Positions 2,709 through 44,877 of a DNA stretch of 64,000 nt are shown piece by piece (the stretch's first letter is position 1; every line of letters starts with the position of its first letter). This stretch comes from Chitinophagaceae bacterium (lineage in GTDB: Bacteria > Bacteroidota > Bacteroidia > Chitinophagales > Chitinophagaceae): positions 124,001-188,000 of the forward strand of contig JAIEMP010000003.1 of NCBI GenBank assembly GCA_019752045.1, read 5' to 3'. The position numbers and the translations under genes are program-made. The notes under the pieces are model-generated. The model made no database searches and was not told the DNA's origin. It saw only the letters and a program-made list of their open reading frames with translations.

Positions 2709-3575
2709 TTACCAGCTACTGAGTCGTATGCCAAAAGTGTAAGGGGTTTGTTCCAATCCGTTTTTATGTAAGTTGTTAAGTGCATAACTGCCGTACAGAT
2801 TTACCACACCCAGATTTAATTCACCAATGGCTGCTAATTTCCATGGCTCCAGGTTAAAATCGTTTTTAATTTTTTCTTTTCCTCTTGCATCGCTGATCAG
2901 TTTCTGACGGGCAGCATACAGATACCCTGCACTTACACCTGCACTGAGTCCGTATGTGCGTTTTCTTTTTGGTGCAAAGTTGAAGTTGAGCATCACCGGT
3001 AAGGTAATATAGTTTGTTGCCAGTTTATTTTTTGAAAAAGCAATACTGTCGCTGTAAAGGATCTGCGGATCAATTCCGTAACGGATATTTTTTTCGTAGC
3101 GATAATTATTCAGCTCAACACCCAGACCATATTTCAGGTTTACAACGTGTGAAATCAAATTCACTTTTTGCATAAAAAACCAGATGTTGATGTTGGATGA
3201 TTTGCCATTCCGAATACTCAAACCGTTTTTTGTTCCGCCAGGATAAAAGGCCTGTGCTGCGGGTGAACTGTAATTGGTTTGATCATTCAGATTGGAGAAA
3301 CCAAGATCAAGAATGAGCCAGTTGGTACTTACGTTCGACTTTTTGTATTCTTTGCGCTTAGTAACTTTAAAACCTTCTTCATTGTCATCGTCGTCGTCAT
3401 CATCTTCATCTTCTTTTGTTTTTTCTTCTTTCTTTTCTTTACCATCATGTCTTTTAATGATGATCATGTTGCCCACTTTAATTGTATCGGCACCTTGTGG
3501 TTTCGTGGTATCACTTTGAGCCATGCCGGTTAAGCATAATAAAAGCCCCAGCAATGAGAATAAAAGTTGCTTCAT
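2709..3575 (-). CDS. Outer-membrane beta-barrel protein with an acidic linker
   Basis: This 288-residue protein has a classical signal peptide (MKQLLFSLLGLLLCLTGMAQ), a charged linker at about residues 48-80 with a run of seven aspartates, and a C-terminal region of alternating aromatic and hydrophobic strands ending in FGIRLSSW, typical of small Bacteroidota outer-membrane beta-barrels (PorT-like family). It is the last gene of a row with the ECF sigma factor (5188-4703) and the membrane anti-sigma-like protein (4652-3597), and has its own terminator, so it may be a sigma target. The ligand or cargo is unknown. Confidence 0.75.
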   Translation of the reverse strand: MKQLLFSLLGLLLCLTGMAQSDTTKPQGADTIKVGNMIIIKRHDGKEKKEEKTKEDEDDDDDDDNEEGFKVTKRKEYKKSNVSTNWLILDLGFSNLNDQTNYSSPAAQAFYPGGTKNGLSIRNGKSSNINIWFFMQKVNLISHVVNLKYGLGVELNNYRYEKNIRYGIDPQILYSDSIAFSKNKLATNYITLPVMLNFNFAPKRKRTYGLSAGVSAGYLYAARQKLISDARGKEKIKNDFNLEPWKLAAIGELNLGVVNLYGSYALNNLHKNGLEQTPYTFGIRLSSW

Positions 3576-5615: not shown

Positions 5616-6803
5616 ATGAACCAAAACCTGGTAAAGCGAATTGCAGCAGAGCTTGATGAAATTAAAACCAACGGATTGTTTAAAACCGAACGGGTAATTG
5701 AAAGTGCTCAGGGTCCTGAGATTATGGTAAACGGGAAAATTGTGCTCAACTTTTGTGCAAATAATTATCTTGGTCTTTCTTCTCATCCAAAAGTAATTGA
5801 AGCAGCCAAAAAGTACATTGATCTGCGTGGATTTGGTATGAGCAGCGTACGCTTTATCTGCGGTACACAGGATATACACAAAGAACTCGAAGCCAAAATT
5901 TCAAAATTTCTCGGTACAGAAGATACCATTCTTTATGCTGCAGCTTTCGACGCCAATGGCGGCGTATTTGAACCATTGTTTAATGAGCAGGATGCCATCA
6001 TCAGCGATGCATTGAACCATGCAAGTATTATTGATGGTGTTCGTTTATGCAAGGCGCAGCGTTACCGTTATGAGCATAACAATATGGAAGATCTCGAAGC
6101 CAAGCTGAAAGAAAGTGCTCATTTACGCAACCGGATTATTGTAACCGACGGAAGTTTCAGCATGGATGGAACCATTGCACAGTTAGATAAGATTGTTGCG
6201 CTGGCTGAACAATATGATGCAAGTATTATGGTTGATGAATGCCATTCAAGCGGGTTTCTTGGCAAAACAGGAAGAGGTACACATGAATATCGTGGAGTGA
6301 TGGGTAAAATTGATATCATCACCGGTACATTGGGTAAAGCGTTGGGTGGTGCAAGCGGTGGATTTACCAGCGGCAATAAAGAAGTGATTGAAATGCTGCG
6401 TCAGCGTTCAAGACCATACCTGTTCAGTAATACATTAGCACCAAGTATTGTGGGTGCATCTATTGCAGTGTTTGATCTGTTGAGTGAAACAACAGAGTTG
6501 AGAGATCAACTGGAAACAAACACCAAATACTTCAGAACAAAAATGACAGAGGCGGGATTTGATATTAAGCCTGGTGATCATCCCATTGTGCCCATCATGT
6601 TATACGATGCGGTGGTTGCACAAAACTTTGCAGCAAAGTTGTTAGAGCAGGGGATTTATGTGATTGGCTTCTTTTTTCCGGTTGTTGCAAAAGGTCAGGC
6701 AAGAATACGGGTACAGTTGAGTGCGGCACACGACAAACAACATTTGGATAAAGCCATTGCTGCTTTTGCAAAAGTGGGGAAGGAGTTGGGAGTGTTGAAA
6801 TAA
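5616..6803 (+). CDS. kbl: Glycine C-acetyltransferase (2-amino-3-ketobutyrate CoA ligase)
   Basis: This 395-residue enzyme of the PLP-dependent alpha-oxoamine synthase family cleaves 2-amino-3-ketobutyrate with CoA to glycine and acetyl-CoA in threonine breakdown. The PLP-binding lysine is K241 in GTLGKALGG; the cofactor-contacting D207 and H210 sit in VDECHSSGFLG; the N-terminal NYLGLSSHP and the GTQDIHKELE stretch are diagnostic. Length equals the family norm. The ATG at 5616 gives the canonical N-terminus; the reading frame upstream of it has no conserved residues. No threonine dehydrogenase gene is adjacent. A strong terminator follows. Confidence 0.95.
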   Translation: MNQNLVKRIAAELDEIKTNGLFKTERVIESAQGPEIMVNGKIVLNFCANNYLGLSSHPKVIEAAKKYIDLRGFGMSSVRFICGTQDIHKELEAKISKFLGTEDTILYAAAFDANGGVFEPLFNEQDAIISDALNHASIIDGVRLCKAQRYRYEHNNMEDLEAKLKESAHLRNRIIVTDGSFSMDGTIAQLDKIVALAEQYDASIMVDECHSSGFLGKTGRGTHEYRGVMGKIDIITGTLGKALGGASGGFTSGNKEVIEMLRQRSRPYLFSNTLAPSIVGASIAVFDLLSETTELRDQLETNTKYFRTKMTEAGFDIKPGDHPIVPIMLYDAVVAQNFAAKLLEQGIYVIGFFFPVVAKGQARIRVQLSAAHDKQHLDKAIAAFAKVGKELGVLK

Positions 6804-10489: not shown

Positions 10490-12643
10490 ATGTTTTTATA
10501 TACTCCTTCCTTAACTGAATACAAACGACTGGCTACAAAAGAAGTAAAGATTGGTGATCTGTTGCTGGGCAACTTCAACCCCATCCGTGTGCAAACCATG
10601 ACGACTACCGATACCATGGATACCCTTGCAACAGTTGAGCAGAGTATCCGCTGTATTGAAGCAGGTGCAGAGCTGGTACGTATTACGGCACCATCAAAAA
10701 AAGAAGCTGAGAATTTACTCAACATTAAAAATGAATTGCGGAAAAGAGGTTACAATACACCGTTAGTAGCCGATATTCATTTTACACCAAATGCAGCAGA
10801 GATTGCAGCAAGGATCGTAGAAAAAGTGAGAGTGAACCCCGGTAACTATGTAGATAAGAAAAAATTTGAGCAGATTGATTATACCGATGCAGAATATCTG
10901 GAAGAGATCGATCGTATCCGTGAACGGTTTACTCCGTTAGTAAGTATTTGTAAAGAATATGGAACAGCAATGCGGATCGGAACCAATCATGGCTCATTAA
11001 GCGATCGTATCATGAGCCGTTATGGCGATACGGCCATTGGTATGGTGGAGAGTGCCATGGAGTTCTTACGGATTGCACGTGCCGAAAGCTTTCACAACAT
11101 TGTGCTGAGTATGAAGAGCAGTAACCCGCAGGTGATGGTGCAGGCGTATCGTTTGCTTATTCAGCAAATGGAAAATGAATTTCACGAAGCGTATCCTTTG
11201 CATCTGGGTGTTACTGAAGCAGGTGATGGTGAAGACGGACGTGTAAAAAGTGCTGCCGGTATTGGTACATTATTAGAAGATGGTATTGGCGATACCGTTC
11301 GGGTAAGTTTAACTGAAGATCCTGAGTTTGAAATTCCCGTTTGCAGAGATTTGGTGAAGCGATATAGCAGCCCCTCCCAAACCCTCCCCGGAAGGGAGGG
11401 CTTTGCCATAACACAAGCCACGCTTAACAGAGTTCCGGCAATTAATAATACGAGTTTGCAAAGCGGGCCTGGTGACATGATGGCCTCACCCTCCGGGGGA
11501 GGTCGGGAGGGGGCTTGGGGTTCTTTGCCTTACTCTCCCTTTGAATACAAACGAAGACAAACTTTTGCTGTATCAAATATTGGTGGTAAGCAAGTGCCGG
11601 TTGTTATAGCTGATCTCAGCAAGCTTCATAAAATTGAAGCAAAAGATCTGGAGAGTGTAGGTTATAAATATGATCCTGCAACAGATAAATGGACCATTGG
11701 AGATATGGCTGCTGATTATATTTTCATCAGCAATCAAACACTACATTTTGAACTGCCGGGTACATTAAAAGTAATTGTGTATCCTGAAACATGGAAAGAC
11801 TCAGTTACAACTGCAGCAGGTGAGCAAAAGTATTTTCCGATTTTTATGGACAGCGGTTATGCAGAGGCAGAAGAAAAAAGTGATGTATTGAATTTTGTGA
11901 TGATTGATTGCTATAGTGATGAAACACCGGTGAATGATTATCCCTATCTCGATGTATTGGCCAATGACCCAACAGTTGTGCTATGTTTAAGCAGTACCAA
12001 CAAAAACGCCATGCAAAGTGTACGGCGTATGTTTGTTGAGTTGATGAACAGACATATCAAGAACCCGGTTGTGTTGATTACCGACAGCAACTGGCAAACT
12101 GCAGATGAACATTTAATTCATTATTCAACAGAGTGTGGTGCATTGTTACTCGATGGTATGGGCGATGGTATTTGTTTGGGAATGACCGGTGAAAGCTATC
12201 AGCAATTTGCAGACGAAGAAAATAAATTAGGAGGCCGGCGTTACTCCTCACCCTTTGGGGGAGGTCGGGAGGGGGCCGAACAATTCATCAATAACACTGC
12301 TTTCACTATTTTACAAGCTACACGTACAAGAATTTCAAAGACAGAATATATTTCCTGCCCCAGTTGCGGACGAACCTTATTTGATCTGCAGGAAACAACT
12401 GCAAAGATCCGTTCGGTTACTAATCATCTCAAAGGTGTAAAAATTGCAATTATGGGGTGTATTGTAAATGGCCCCGGCGAAATGGCCGATGCAGATTTTG
12501 GATATGTGGGCAGCGGTCCCGGAAAGATTACGTTGTATAAAGGAAAAGAAGTGGTTAAAAAAAATATAGACAGTGAGGTTGCAGTAAACGAACTCATTGG
12601 TTTATTAAAAGAAAGTGATGCGTGGGTAGAGCCTGCAGTATAA
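10490..12643 (+). CDS. ispG: IspG, 4-hydroxy-3-methylbut-2-enyl diphosphate synthase, long form with three repeat-encoded insertions
   Basis: IspG reduces 2-C-methyl-erythritol 2,4-cyclodiphosphate to HMBPP in the MEP isoprenoid pathway, using a [4Fe-4S] cluster. The N-terminal TIM barrel (about 15-290) carries ITAPSKKEAENL and GVTEAGDGEDG. A large insert domain follows, as in plant and Bacteroidota enzymes. The reductase domain (about 600-717) has cluster ligands C623, C626 and C657 and the conserved glutamate E664 in NGPGE. At 717 residues it is longer than I would expect even for the long form. The excess is at least partly explained by three copies of a palindromic repeat translated at about residues 293-304, 332-342 and 585-596. 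All catalytic residues are intact, so it is probably functional. Confidence 0.93.
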   Translation: MFLYTPSLTEYKRLATKEVKIGDLLLGNFNPIRVQTMTTTDTMDTLATVEQSIRCIEAGAELVRITAPSKKEAENLLNIKNELRKRGYNTPLVADIHFTPNAAEIAARIVEKVRVNPGNYVDKKKFEQIDYTDAEYLEEIDRIRERFTPLVSICKEYGTAMRIGTNHGSLSDRIMSRYGDTAIGMVESAMEFLRIARAESFHNIVLSMKSSNPQVMVQAYRLLIQQMENEFHEAYPLHLGVTEAGDGEDGRVKSAAGIGTLLEDGIGDTVRVSLTEDPEFEIPVCRDLVKRYSSPSQTLPGREGFAITQATLNRVPAINNTSLQSGPGDMMASPSGGGREGAWGSLPYSPFEYKRRQTFAVSNIGGKQVPVVIADLSKLHKIEAKDLESVGYKYDPATDKWTIGDMAADYIFISNQTLHFELPGTLKVIVYPETWKDSVTTAAGEQKYFPIFMDSGYAEAEEKSDVLNFVMIDCYSDETPVNDYPYLDVLANDPTVVLCLSSTNKNAMQSVRRMFVELMNRHIKNPVVLITDSNWQTADEHLIHYSTECGALLLDGMGDGICLGMTGESYQQFADEENKLGGRRYSSPFGGGREGAEQFINNTAFTILQATRTRISKTEYISCPSCGRTLFDLQETTAKIRSVTNHLKGVKIAIMGCIVNGPGEMADADFGYVGSGPGKITLYKGKEVVKKNIDSEVAVNELIGLLKESDAWVEPAV
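11369..11403 (+). repeat. Palindromic repeat family 1, copy A (inside ispG)
   Basis: A C-rich arm followed by CCCTCCCC-GGAA-GGGAGGG. It is translated as part of ispG to SPSQTLPGREG. It lies in the opposite orientation to copies B and D relative to the coding strand. Confidence 0.85.
11483..11515 (-). repeat. Palindromic repeat family 1, copy B (inside ispG)
   Basis: Read on the minus strand: GCCCCCTCCCGACC, then CTCCCCCGGAGGGTGAGG. The coding strand yields ASPSGGGREGA, the same peptide as copies C and D. Confidence 0.85.
12242..12277 (-). repeat. Palindromic repeat family 1, copy D (inside ispG)
   Basis: Nearly identical to copy B, with CCAAAGG instead of CGGAGG at the hairpin tip. It is translated as YSSPFGGGREGA in the segment just before the IspG cluster-binding domain. 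Confidence 0.85.
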
Positions 12644-38800: not shown

Positions 38801-38841
38801 AGCCTCATCCTCCAACTCCTTCTCCAAAAGAGAAGGAGCGG
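38801..38841 (+). repeat. Palindromic repeat family 1, copy F (upstream of the EamA gene)
   Basis: GCCTCATCCTCCAACTCC, then TTCTCCAAAAGAGAAGGAG. This is the second subfamily (hairpin with an AAAA tip). It lies five bases upstream of the EamA start and, on the minus strand, supplies a GGAGG sequence near the start codon. Confidence 0.8.
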
Positions 38842-38953
38842 TGCTTTTAGTTATTAATTAATCGTTTTGTTCTTCCACATCCACTTCAAATGTTTCTTCA
38901 TCTTTTTTTGCATTGATTTTTCTTTTAAACAAGATGGCTTTGTGCTTTGCTGT

Positions 38954-38985
38954 TCTCCCCCTCGGGGGGAGTTAGAGGGGGCTTC
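38954..38985 (-). repeat. Palindromic repeat family 1, copy E (at the purH stop)
   Basis: On the minus strand: AAGCCCCCTCTAACTCCCC, then CCGAGGGGGAGA. It begins directly after the purH TAG at 38986-38988. It matches the first subfamily and forms a hairpin CTCCCCC/GGGGGAG. Confidence 0.82.
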
Positions 38986-40521
38986 CTAATGTTTAAAATG
39001 CCGCATCCCTGTAATCACCATCGCTAAATTATTTTGCTTACAGTATTCAATCGAATCATTATCACGAATAGAACCACCCGGTTGAATAAATGCAGTGATG
39101 CCTGCTGCATGACCCATTTGCACACAATCATTAAAAGGAAAGAATGCATCACTCGCCATTACTGCACCGGTAAGATCGAAGTTAAACTGTTTTGCTTTTT
39201 CAACCGATTGACGAAGTGAATCAATACGACTGGTTTGTCCGCAACCTTTACCCACCAGTTGCTTCTTCTTCACTAATGCAATGGCATTACTCTTTAAATG
39301 TTTGCAGATAATATTTGCAAATACAAGATCGTCTTTTTCTTCTGCAGTGGTTTCTCTTCCACCAGCTTCCTTCCATTCGGTATAGTTGCCTTCATCAATT
39401 CCCTGCACCAATACACCGTTCAACAATGATTTGTATTGTTCTTTTACTTTTGGTTGATTTTTCAGTTGTAACAGAATACGATTCTTTTTCGACTTCAATA
39501 CTTCCAATGCATCTGCTGCAAACGATGGAGCGATCAATACTTCAAAGAAAATTTCATTAATGGCTTCGGCAGTGGCTTTATCAATTTCTCCATTGCTAAC
39601 CAACACTCCACCAAATGCACTTTCAGGATCACCTGCCAATGCAGCATCCCAGCTTTCTTTTACAGCAGCACGTTGTGCCACACCACATACATTGGTATGT
39701 TTGATGATGGCAAAAACGGCCCCCTCCTGACCTCCCCCGGAAGGGGAGGAGAATGCAAACTCTCCGATTAATTGTACGGCAGCATCAACATCAACCAAAT
39801 TATTATAGCTTAATTCTTTTCCGTTTAATTGAGTAAACAACTCATCGAGATTGCCGAAGAAACGTGCAGACTGATGCGGGTTTTCACCATAACGCATGAT
39901 CTTTTCTTCTTTGTTGAATGGTGTGTCAACTGCTGATTGATGAAAGTAGTTAGAGATAGCAGTATCATAAGCCGTACACACATCAAATGCTTTGATAGCA
40001 AATGCACGACGTTGTTCATAACTTGTTTCACCATTTTGATTGCGCAGGATTTCTTCCAGCACAGCGTATTCTTTCTTTGCTGCAAGCACTACTACATCTT
40101 TATGATTTTTTGCAGCAGCACGAATCATAGATGGTCCGCCGATATCAATTTTTTCAATAATAGCCTTTTCATCGGTTGTTGAAGCAACAGTTTCTTCAAA
40201 CGGATAGAGATCTACAATCACCAGATCAAGTTCAGGAATATTGTACTGCTTCATTTCTTGCAGATGCTGTGCATCATCTCTTTTTCCAAGGATGCCTCCA
40301 AACACAGAGGGATGCAATGTTTTTACACGACCTCCTAAAATAGAAGGGTAGCTGGTTAAACTTTCAACAGGTACAACAGGGATGCCGAGTTTTTCAATAA
40401 ACTGCTGTGTGCCACCGGTAGAATAAATGGTTACGTTTTGTGTATGTAATAATTGAACGAGTGAATCCAGCCCGTCTTTATAAAACACTGAAATGAGAGC
40501 CGATTGAATTTTCTTTGTCAT
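38986..40521 (-). CDS. purH: Bifunctional AICAR transformylase/IMP cyclohydrolase, with one repeat-encoded insertion
   Basis: PurH performs the last two steps of purine synthesis, AICAR to FAICAR to IMP. The 511-residue protein has the IMP cyclohydrolase domain (1-200; YSTGGTQQFIEKLG, GGRVKTLHPSVFGGIL) and the AICARFT domain (from about 205; YGENPHQSARFF, K274-H275 in IIKHTNVCG, C-terminal RHFKH). Residues 257-269 (FSSPSGGGQEGAV) are encoded by a palindromic repeat inserted five residues before the catalytic Lys-His pair, where homologues have a short turn. The frame remains open and all key residues are intact. Confidence 0.94.
   Translation of the reverse strand: MTKKIQSALISVFYKDGLDSLVQLLHTQNVTIYSTGGTQQFIEKLGIPVVPVESLTSYPSILGGRVKTLHPSVFGGILGKRDDAQHLQEMKQYNIPELDLVIVDLYPFEETVASTTDEKAIIEKIDIGGPSMIRAAAKNHKDVVVLAAKKEYAVLEEILRNQNGETSYEQRRAFAIKAFDVCTAYDTAISNYFHQSAVDTPFNKEEKIMRYGENPHQSARFFGNLDELFTQLNGKELSYNNLVDVDAAVQLIGEFAFSSPSGGGQEGAVFAIIKHTNVCGVAQRAAVKESWDAALAGDPESAFGGVLVSNGEIDKATAEAINEIFFEVLIAPSFAADALEVLKSKKNRILLQLKNQPKVKEQYKSLLNGVLVQGIDEGNYTEWKEAGGRETTAEEKDDLVFANIICKHLKSNAIALVKKKQLVGKGCGQTSRIDSLRQSVEKAKQFNFDLTGAVMASDAFFPFNDCVQMGHAAGITAFIQPGGSIRDNDSIEYCKQNNLAMVITGMRHFKH
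39716..39753 (+). repeat. Palindromic repeat family 1, copy C (inside purH)
   Basis: GCCCCCTCCTGACCTCCCCC, then GGAAGGGGAGGAG. The coding (minus) strand reads SSPSGGGQEGA, the same frame and orientation as copies B and D in ispG. Confidence 0.87.
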
Positions 40522-44840: not shown

Positions 44841-44877
44841 CCTCACCCTCAATCCCTCTCCAAAAGAGAGGGAGGCC
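44841..44877 (+). repeat. Palindromic repeat family 1, copy G
   Basis: CCTCACCCTCAATCCCTCTC, then CAAAAGAGAGGGAGGCC; the second subfamily, in the gap upstream of the DinB gene. Confidence 0.8.

Follow-up and report, generated by a model that had tools for sequence, protein, structure and literature searches.

Three copies of one palindromic repeat are translated within the ispG gene of a Chitinophagaceae bacterium. They belong to a family that we interpret, with a probability of roughly 60%, as small palindrome-ended mobile elements inserting in frame, of which a nuclease-bearing form would be autonomous and the short copies would be derivatives. That the repeats are mobile and not ancestral loops is well supported, because congeners have empty sites, the copy number is patchy and different species have unlike inserts at one and the same site of IspG or PurH. 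The in-frame tolerance of palindromes in Bacteroidota genes is also well supported. What is new here is the nuclease-bearing form, which may deserve a class of its own; it goes beyond the earlier sequence-only reading of this DNA and changes the likely mechanism. To our knowledge, coding palindromes are best known from the intracellular Rickettsiales, and we know of no mover for them. The case described here is from a different phylum; it has dozens of copies, congeners whose sites are empty, and a possible mover carried by the element itself. In titles and the beginnings of abstracts, an incomplete coverage of the literature, neither palindromes nor DUF559 domains are reported in frame in Bacteroidota.

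The window, i.e. the whole stretch of 64,000 nucleotides analysed, has a GC content of 39% and comes from a genome of 4.16 Mb (G000). It contains the following features, where R1 is the repeat model described below:

10490-12643, plus strand: ispG, host of three in-frame copies (open reading frame; PF04551; NCBIfam IspG)
11370-11401, minus strand: core of copy A in ispG (R1 match; minus denotes the strand on which the element is G-rich)
11370-11428, right limit approximate, minus strand: copy A, hairpin and subterminal part, translated SPSQTLPGREGFAITQATLN
11455-11514, upstream limit by eye, plus strand: copy B with a longer upstream part
11483-11514, plus strand: core of copy B in ispG, translated ASPSGGGREGA (R1 match)
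12245-12276, plus strand: core of copy D in ispG, translated SSPFGGGREGA (R1 match)
38802-38982, minus strand: two-ended nuclease-less element, intergenic, directly downstream of purH (R1 match)
38986-40521, minus strand: purH, host gene (NCBIfam PurH)
39719-39750, minus strand: in-frame copy in purH, translated SSPSGGGQEGA (R1 match)
44846-44875, plus strand: intergenic palindrome with a different stem, family membership uncertain (absent from the R1 matches)

The ispG frame of 717 residues is open throughout, and palindromes A, B and D are translated without a stop or shift, as had been claimed from the sequence alone. The peptides are also those claimed, i.e. the two listed for B and D, and SPSQTLPGREG for A in the opposite orientation. 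This is the single PF04551 gene found in G000, matched in two stretches of one open reading frame. Residues C623, C626 and C657 of IspG lie where the sequence-only reading had placed them and are invariant in our IspG alignment (A3). Copy A runs about 25 nt further than claimed, matching a copy on contig C8 at 80% over 64 nt with the similarity reaching 11426. In copy B, positions 11455-11482 upstream of the core resemble longer copies (by eye). The repeats are not a product of chance, by the genome-wide matches described below and by a shuffle test, in which the 29-nt D sequence occurs twice in the window at up to three mismatches vs 0 occurrences in 100 shuffles. A fourth coding copy lies in purH, a few residues ahead of the KHTN motif, and the element downstream of purH, 181 nt as delimited, is a full-length relative. 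When 45 conserved open reading frames of the window are compared with up to eight congeners, there are four internal insertions of at least 5 residues, all of them R1 palindromes; the other flagged runs are at the starts of reading frames or 4 residues long. The palindrome at 44846-44875 has a CCCTCTCC-type stem and resembles stems flanking DUF559 in distant families of the order.

Searching G000 with a 26-nt pattern at up to three mismatches gives 20 matches vs 0 for the reversed control. Model R1 was built from 19 of these, leaving out one with an indel, and its consensus TCCTCCCCCTCnGGGGGAGGTCGGGAGGGGGC consists of a hairpin, CCTCCCC/GGGGAGG, and a G-rich tail. The genome search for all copies, proposed in the sequence-only reading, was run with this model and finds at least 84 places in G000 at E<=0.05, and 69 at E<=1e-3; the 84 is a lower bound, as 150 of 626 candidates were scored. 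Some copies show covariation in the stem (CCTTCCCC/GGGGAAGG; GCTTC/GAAG, by eye). By our own reading of the loci, not by curated annotation, 35 of the 84 copies are inside 25 conserved genes, 12 near gene ends and 37 intergenic or unassigned:

Several internal copies: IspG (three), Acs (three), IcmF (two), FadB (two), LeuS (two), GcvP (two), a pyruvate dehydrogenase E1 alpha-beta fusion (two) and a large protein without an assigned name (two), where for IcmF and the large protein it is inferred from the spacing that both copies are in one gene
Single internal copies: a second pyruvate dehydrogenase E1 alpha-beta fusion, PurH, ValS, MetG, TadA, RlmD, PhzF, UDP-glucose dehydrogenase, gamma-glutamyltransferase, ArgC, HemF, TrpE, TrpF, PcrA, MetH, adenine deaminase and RarA
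Copies near protein ends (12, the coding status being uncertain for some): MurC, ArgH, FtsW, LeuB, ThrB, PheA, CobA, IlvN, IlvE, ArgB, NuoG and HutH

Among the hosts, genes such as valS, leuS, metG and ispG are generally known to be essential.

Longer forms are seen in a 14-kb locus on contig C8 (L144) with seven R1 matches, where copies of about 180-190 nt have inverted hairpin ends (for example positions 2901-3086 and 6162-6350 of the locus). The outer ends of such two-ended copies pair and vary together (GGCCTC..GAGGCC, GCCCC..GGGGC, GACC..GGTC, by eye). Two full-length copies fold better as RNA than their shuffles (z -3.4 and -2.7); single copies folded as DNA do so only mildly (z -0.8 to -1.9 in six folds). 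Both forms occur in coding sequence, two-ended for example in the pyruvate dehydrogenase linker and GcvP, and single-ended for example in PurH, IspG-D and MurC. In one of the pyruvate dehydrogenase loci (L030:376-2493) a single open reading frame joins E1 alpha to E1 beta, and the linker is largely a two-ended copy. Two stretches of contig C1 between inverted R1 matches were read for a classical transposase; they contain ffh-, rpsP- and nuo-type genes (named by our own reading, except NuoG) and none that is a transposase. We also dropped the notion that the core never contains stops, as cores are stop-free in all six frames in only 40 of the 84 copies.

The comparison with relatives reveals both filled and empty sites. 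Of 29 genomes, including G000, 23 yielded an IspG protein, and all 23 proteins were aligned. Site D is filled in two of them (G000 and G012), site A in the same two with a divergent insert in G017, and site B in five (G000, G012, G001, G009 and G017), while the remaining proteins have other, mostly shorter loops. The sequence-only reading had named, as the outcome that would speak against it, the presence of the same residues in all related IspG proteins; this outcome did not occur, the inserts being missing from most of the 23. The boundaries, which it had proposed to check for exactness, are not clean, as a single-ended copy replaces 4-6 host residues both at PurH and at IspG-D, and no clear case of a target-site duplication was seen. 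Outside the genus, 40 aligned IspG proteins from 80 named loci have no comparable peptide at the three places, and the motifs tried pick up no palindrome-type peptide anywhere else in them.

The occupants of one site also differ. At IspG site B the copy in G012 belongs to another subfamily than the copy in G000. The copy that G009 has there recurs without any difference over 32 nt at four further G009 loci that were read, some of them outside long open reading frames. PurH was found in 28 of the 29 genomes, and in the 19 aligned proteins the site is a short loop in 12, differs by a few residues in four and holds unlike inserts in three, i.e. the R1 palindrome in G000, a longer, other palindrome-like insert in G012 and a short one in G002. 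With 150 candidates scored per genome, R1 copies at E<=1e-3 number at least 69 in G000, at least 53 in G012, at least 47 in G009 and at least 29 in G004, then 5 in G013, 4 in G001, 2 each in G002, G003 and G017, and 1 each in G007 and G011, with none in the other 18 of the 29 genomes. Within the genus, four genomes have 29-69 copies and the other 10 congeners at most 5, four of these having 0. Repeat copies, empty sites and in-frame retention all agree with the earlier suggestion that a mobile palindrome is tolerated in coding sequence of Bacteroidota.

Two enzymes of G000 contain the nuclease-bearing form. A DUF559 domain covers residues 336-441 of LeuS (E 4e-32, NCBIfam and Pfam) and residues 529-634 of Acs, the acetyl-CoA synthetase (E 3e-32, Pfam); PF04480 scores 111 bits in both vs a cut-off of 20.6, and each domain stands between two inverted R1 matches, in spans of 462 and 485 bp. 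Of 16 LeuS sequences that were aligned (17 loci were chosen and G019 was left out), 13 have an empty site, at which ..AIK is directly followed by LRVYTTRPDTIFG.., and G000, G012 and G004 have the insert, with the ends GCCCCCTCTAA..TTTAGAGGGGGC. Within the genus the insert is absent from 10 of 13 and present in 3. Its junctions read ..KKPPLTPPEGE.. and ..VSSPGGDLEGAS.., and a general Pfam scan of LeuS and Acs gave no intein family. The D and ExD residues are kept in an alignment of 55 DUF559 domains, of which 52 had been preselected by a motif containing D/ExD, and the LeuS rows of G000, G012 and G004 by a host motif. A relative of the domain from MetG of G004 has a solved structure, 3hrl (E 1e-15), and DUF559 is described as a Vsr-like member of the PD-(D/E)XK superfamily (PMC12907096).

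Among 20 genomes, DUF559 matches number 10 in G009, 7 in G012, 5 in G000, 4 in G004 and 0-3 in the rest; G010 and G005 have two matches each and 0 R1 copies. Order-wide, DUF559 is found in 88 of 198 genomes, and among about 150 matches listed 38 are in open frames of at least 800 residues. In-frame DUF559 recurs across the order in LeuS, MetG, MetH, AroC, UvrA and others, mostly with flanking hairpins. From the genus and the order, 29 DUF559 reading frames of at least 300 residues were scanned, and NCBIfam names the host for 27:

Hosts found more than once: LeuS (12), AroC (3), ArgB (2), Ade (2), MetH (2) and IleS (2)
Hosts found once: MetG, UvrA, MnmE and a DEXH helicase

Nine of the 12 LeuS hosts, which come from several families of the order, have the domain at one and the same site (model position about 237-240). 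The ArgB case is an end fusion and not an internal insertion; DUF559 precedes ArgB in G002, G009 and G010, and in G011 (L371, contig C4) a HisA-like protein (by eye) has DUF559 joined in frame to its start. The hairpin test covered 52 domains, chosen from 59 loci by a DUF559 motif. Around 31 reading frames of at least 300 residues, among which one insertion may be represented by copies from sister species and two hosts are without a name, hairpins are found on both sides in 20, on one side in 7 and on none in 4, and control windows of the same loci have any hairpin in 15 of 117. The two IleS cases have none by our criteria. Hairpins are not special to in-frame DUF559, because free-standing DUF559 genes are also flanked: 21 shorter, free-standing reading frames have them on both sides in 13 and on none in 6 (controls, any hairpin in 10 of 84).

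A tree of 54 of the 55 domains places most in-frame copies in one weakly supported group (92/91). Over the tree as a whole the host label is strongly clustered, needing 16 changes vs 31.7 in shuffles, and therefore much of the inheritance of DUF559 is vertical or site-bound. The sorting by host is not clean: MetH, Acs, Ade and MetG hosts are mixed on one branch (96/86), AroC copies adjoin a LeuS copy (99/92), and the copies at LeuS site 1 need four changes, at least two of which are forced by well-supported branches. Judged from these sequences, the tree appears to record both inheritance and hopping.

We suggest that the autonomous form is the nuclease-bearing, palindrome-bounded element. Its Vsr-like nuclease would nick or cut DNA, and repair would then copy the element in, mostly by a homing-like return to established sites and occasionally elsewhere. 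The two-ended copies that lack the nuclease (~110-190 bp) and the single ends, such as those of ispG and purH (~33-60 nt), would be derivatives that arise by movement in trans or by internal deletion, and those copies that hold the frame in a tolerant loop or at a domain junction would survive selection. The tolerance of GGAGG-rich inserts is possibly helped by Bacteroidia ribosomes ignoring Shine-Dalgarno sequences, which they are reported not to recognise (PMC9976891). To the predicted DUF559 nuclease as the driver of the spread we give about an even chance. It can more tentatively be speculated that there is, in this order, a hitherto undescribed class of selfish, palindrome-bounded DUF559 elements which both home and transpose and reside in frame in essential genes without splicing, above all in LeuS. 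Host enzymes might then permanently carry a nuclease domain, and nuclease-less swarms might rewrite the loops of IspG and PurH, which we likewise hold to be somewhat doubtful.

The main rival, now weakened, is a RAYT/Y1 protein as the mover: a Y1 (HUH) transposase would mobilise the palindromes as REP-like units, and DUF559 would be a passenger beside them. REPs with GTAG/CGTC tags and RAYTs are short high-copy hairpins, some of them in open reading frames of several bacteria, and CGTC repeats are also reported from Bacteroidetes (PMC3733652); the available text of that paper names none of the five Bacteroidota genera and one outside species sought. R1 elements are likewise short hairpins at high copy, some in open reading frames, and the single terminal hairpins, dispersed as they are, do look REP-like. 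G000 also has eight Y1_Tnp matches, and across 13 genomes of the genus, uncorrected for kinship, the number of R1 copies correlates with that of Y1 genes (Spearman 0.65) as well as with that of DUF559 (Spearman 0.77). DUF559 and Y1 numbers are themselves correlated (Spearman 0.76), and the correlation fails to single out the nuclease. However, R1 carries no GTAG or CGTC tag: the 32-nt consensus, TCC..GGGGGC, ends in neither and has no GTAG beside the hairpin. The R1 matches nearest to any of the eight Y1 genes of G000 are ~2.6 kb (C2:342395) and ~3.1 kb (C2:470707) away, and among the Y1 loci of G000 and its relatives R1 matches turned up only in the two (L151 and L152) that include these. Moreover, the palindromes of the RAYT-like gene on contig C6, CCCCGATTGCATCGGGG and CCCCGATACAATCGGGG, are of another kind than R1, and the R1 ends flank DUF559. 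We consider this explanation unlikely. The RAYT-like Y1 gene on C6 (L177, C6:253500-256616) lies between CCCCGATTGCATCGGGG and CCCCGATACAATCGGGG, at ~2309 and ~2987 of the locus, as a separate REP-type system.

Pure homing, in which the DUF559 element would pass from allele to allele of one site without ever transposing to a new one, leaving the short copies as decayed scars, could account for the single LeuS site filled in 9 of 12 hosts from several families, and for the unlike variants at the PurH and IspG-B sites. However, at least 84 copies occupy many unrelated sites, many of them intergenic, cores are identical at different G009 loci, and host genes are mixed on parts of the DUF559 tree; it seems quite improbable to us. 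EDxHD nucleases are akin to Vsr. They are a listed homing endonuclease family (PMC6083498). Like introns and inteins with homing endonucleases, the R1/DUF559 form places a nuclease gene within conserved genes, but no splicing element is apparent in it and the host frame runs through the palindromes and the nuclease. Finally, GC-rich ancestral loops with convergent codons would dispense with a mobile element altogether. The inserts are indeed found in variable loops, which often differ in length (alignment A3), but there are exact repeats inside and outside long open reading frames, empty sites in congeners and copies throughout the genome. In view of the empty sites, the identical G009 repeats and the 40 named IspG proteins that lack the peptide, we rejected it and give it next to no credence.

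Palindromic repeats of ~105-150 bp, in frame in conserved protein genes, are described as RPE in Rickettsia (PMC10969869, PMC2229807), and WPE of Wolbachia are of the same type, according to a reference cited there. R1 elements are also in frame and retained in conserved protein genes, but their unit goes down to 33 nt, they have two-ended forms and a nuclease form of ~460-485 bp, they come from another phylum, and they lack the CGTC end reported for R. conorii RPE-4 and RPE-6 (PMC3733652). The independence from Rickettsia suggested earlier is supported only in so far as this end tag is missing. In the same phylum, MITEs of Porphyromonas gingivalis and Cardinium are non-autonomous inverted-repeat elements (PMC4596501, PMC9769881), resembling R1 in this respect by description; in-frame insertion is unmentioned in the available text of these papers. 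Chitinophagaceae include cultured members, and a case of this kind allows tests of the way in which coding palindromes move and of their possible role as a continual supply of new loops to core proteins. A simple explanation is also offered for the additional segments, and for the DUF559 domains, that aminoacyl-tRNA synthetases of the group contain.

Some smaller features accompany the repeats. A TCGGAGG-like motif is found upstream of 9 of the 84 copies, whereas 500 mononucleotide shuffles give 1.7 on average and never more than 5; picked after inspection, it is a weak lead. Against Rfam, the 14-kb locus L144, with its seven R1 matches, gives five weak matches, none near its own gathering score. 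At ~4400 and ~9200 of that locus there is a AATAGAATTACAGAACGTACAAGAGTGCGACGCAAC-like stretch, which several congeners also have in their leu/ilv operon and which is perhaps a leader or attenuator.
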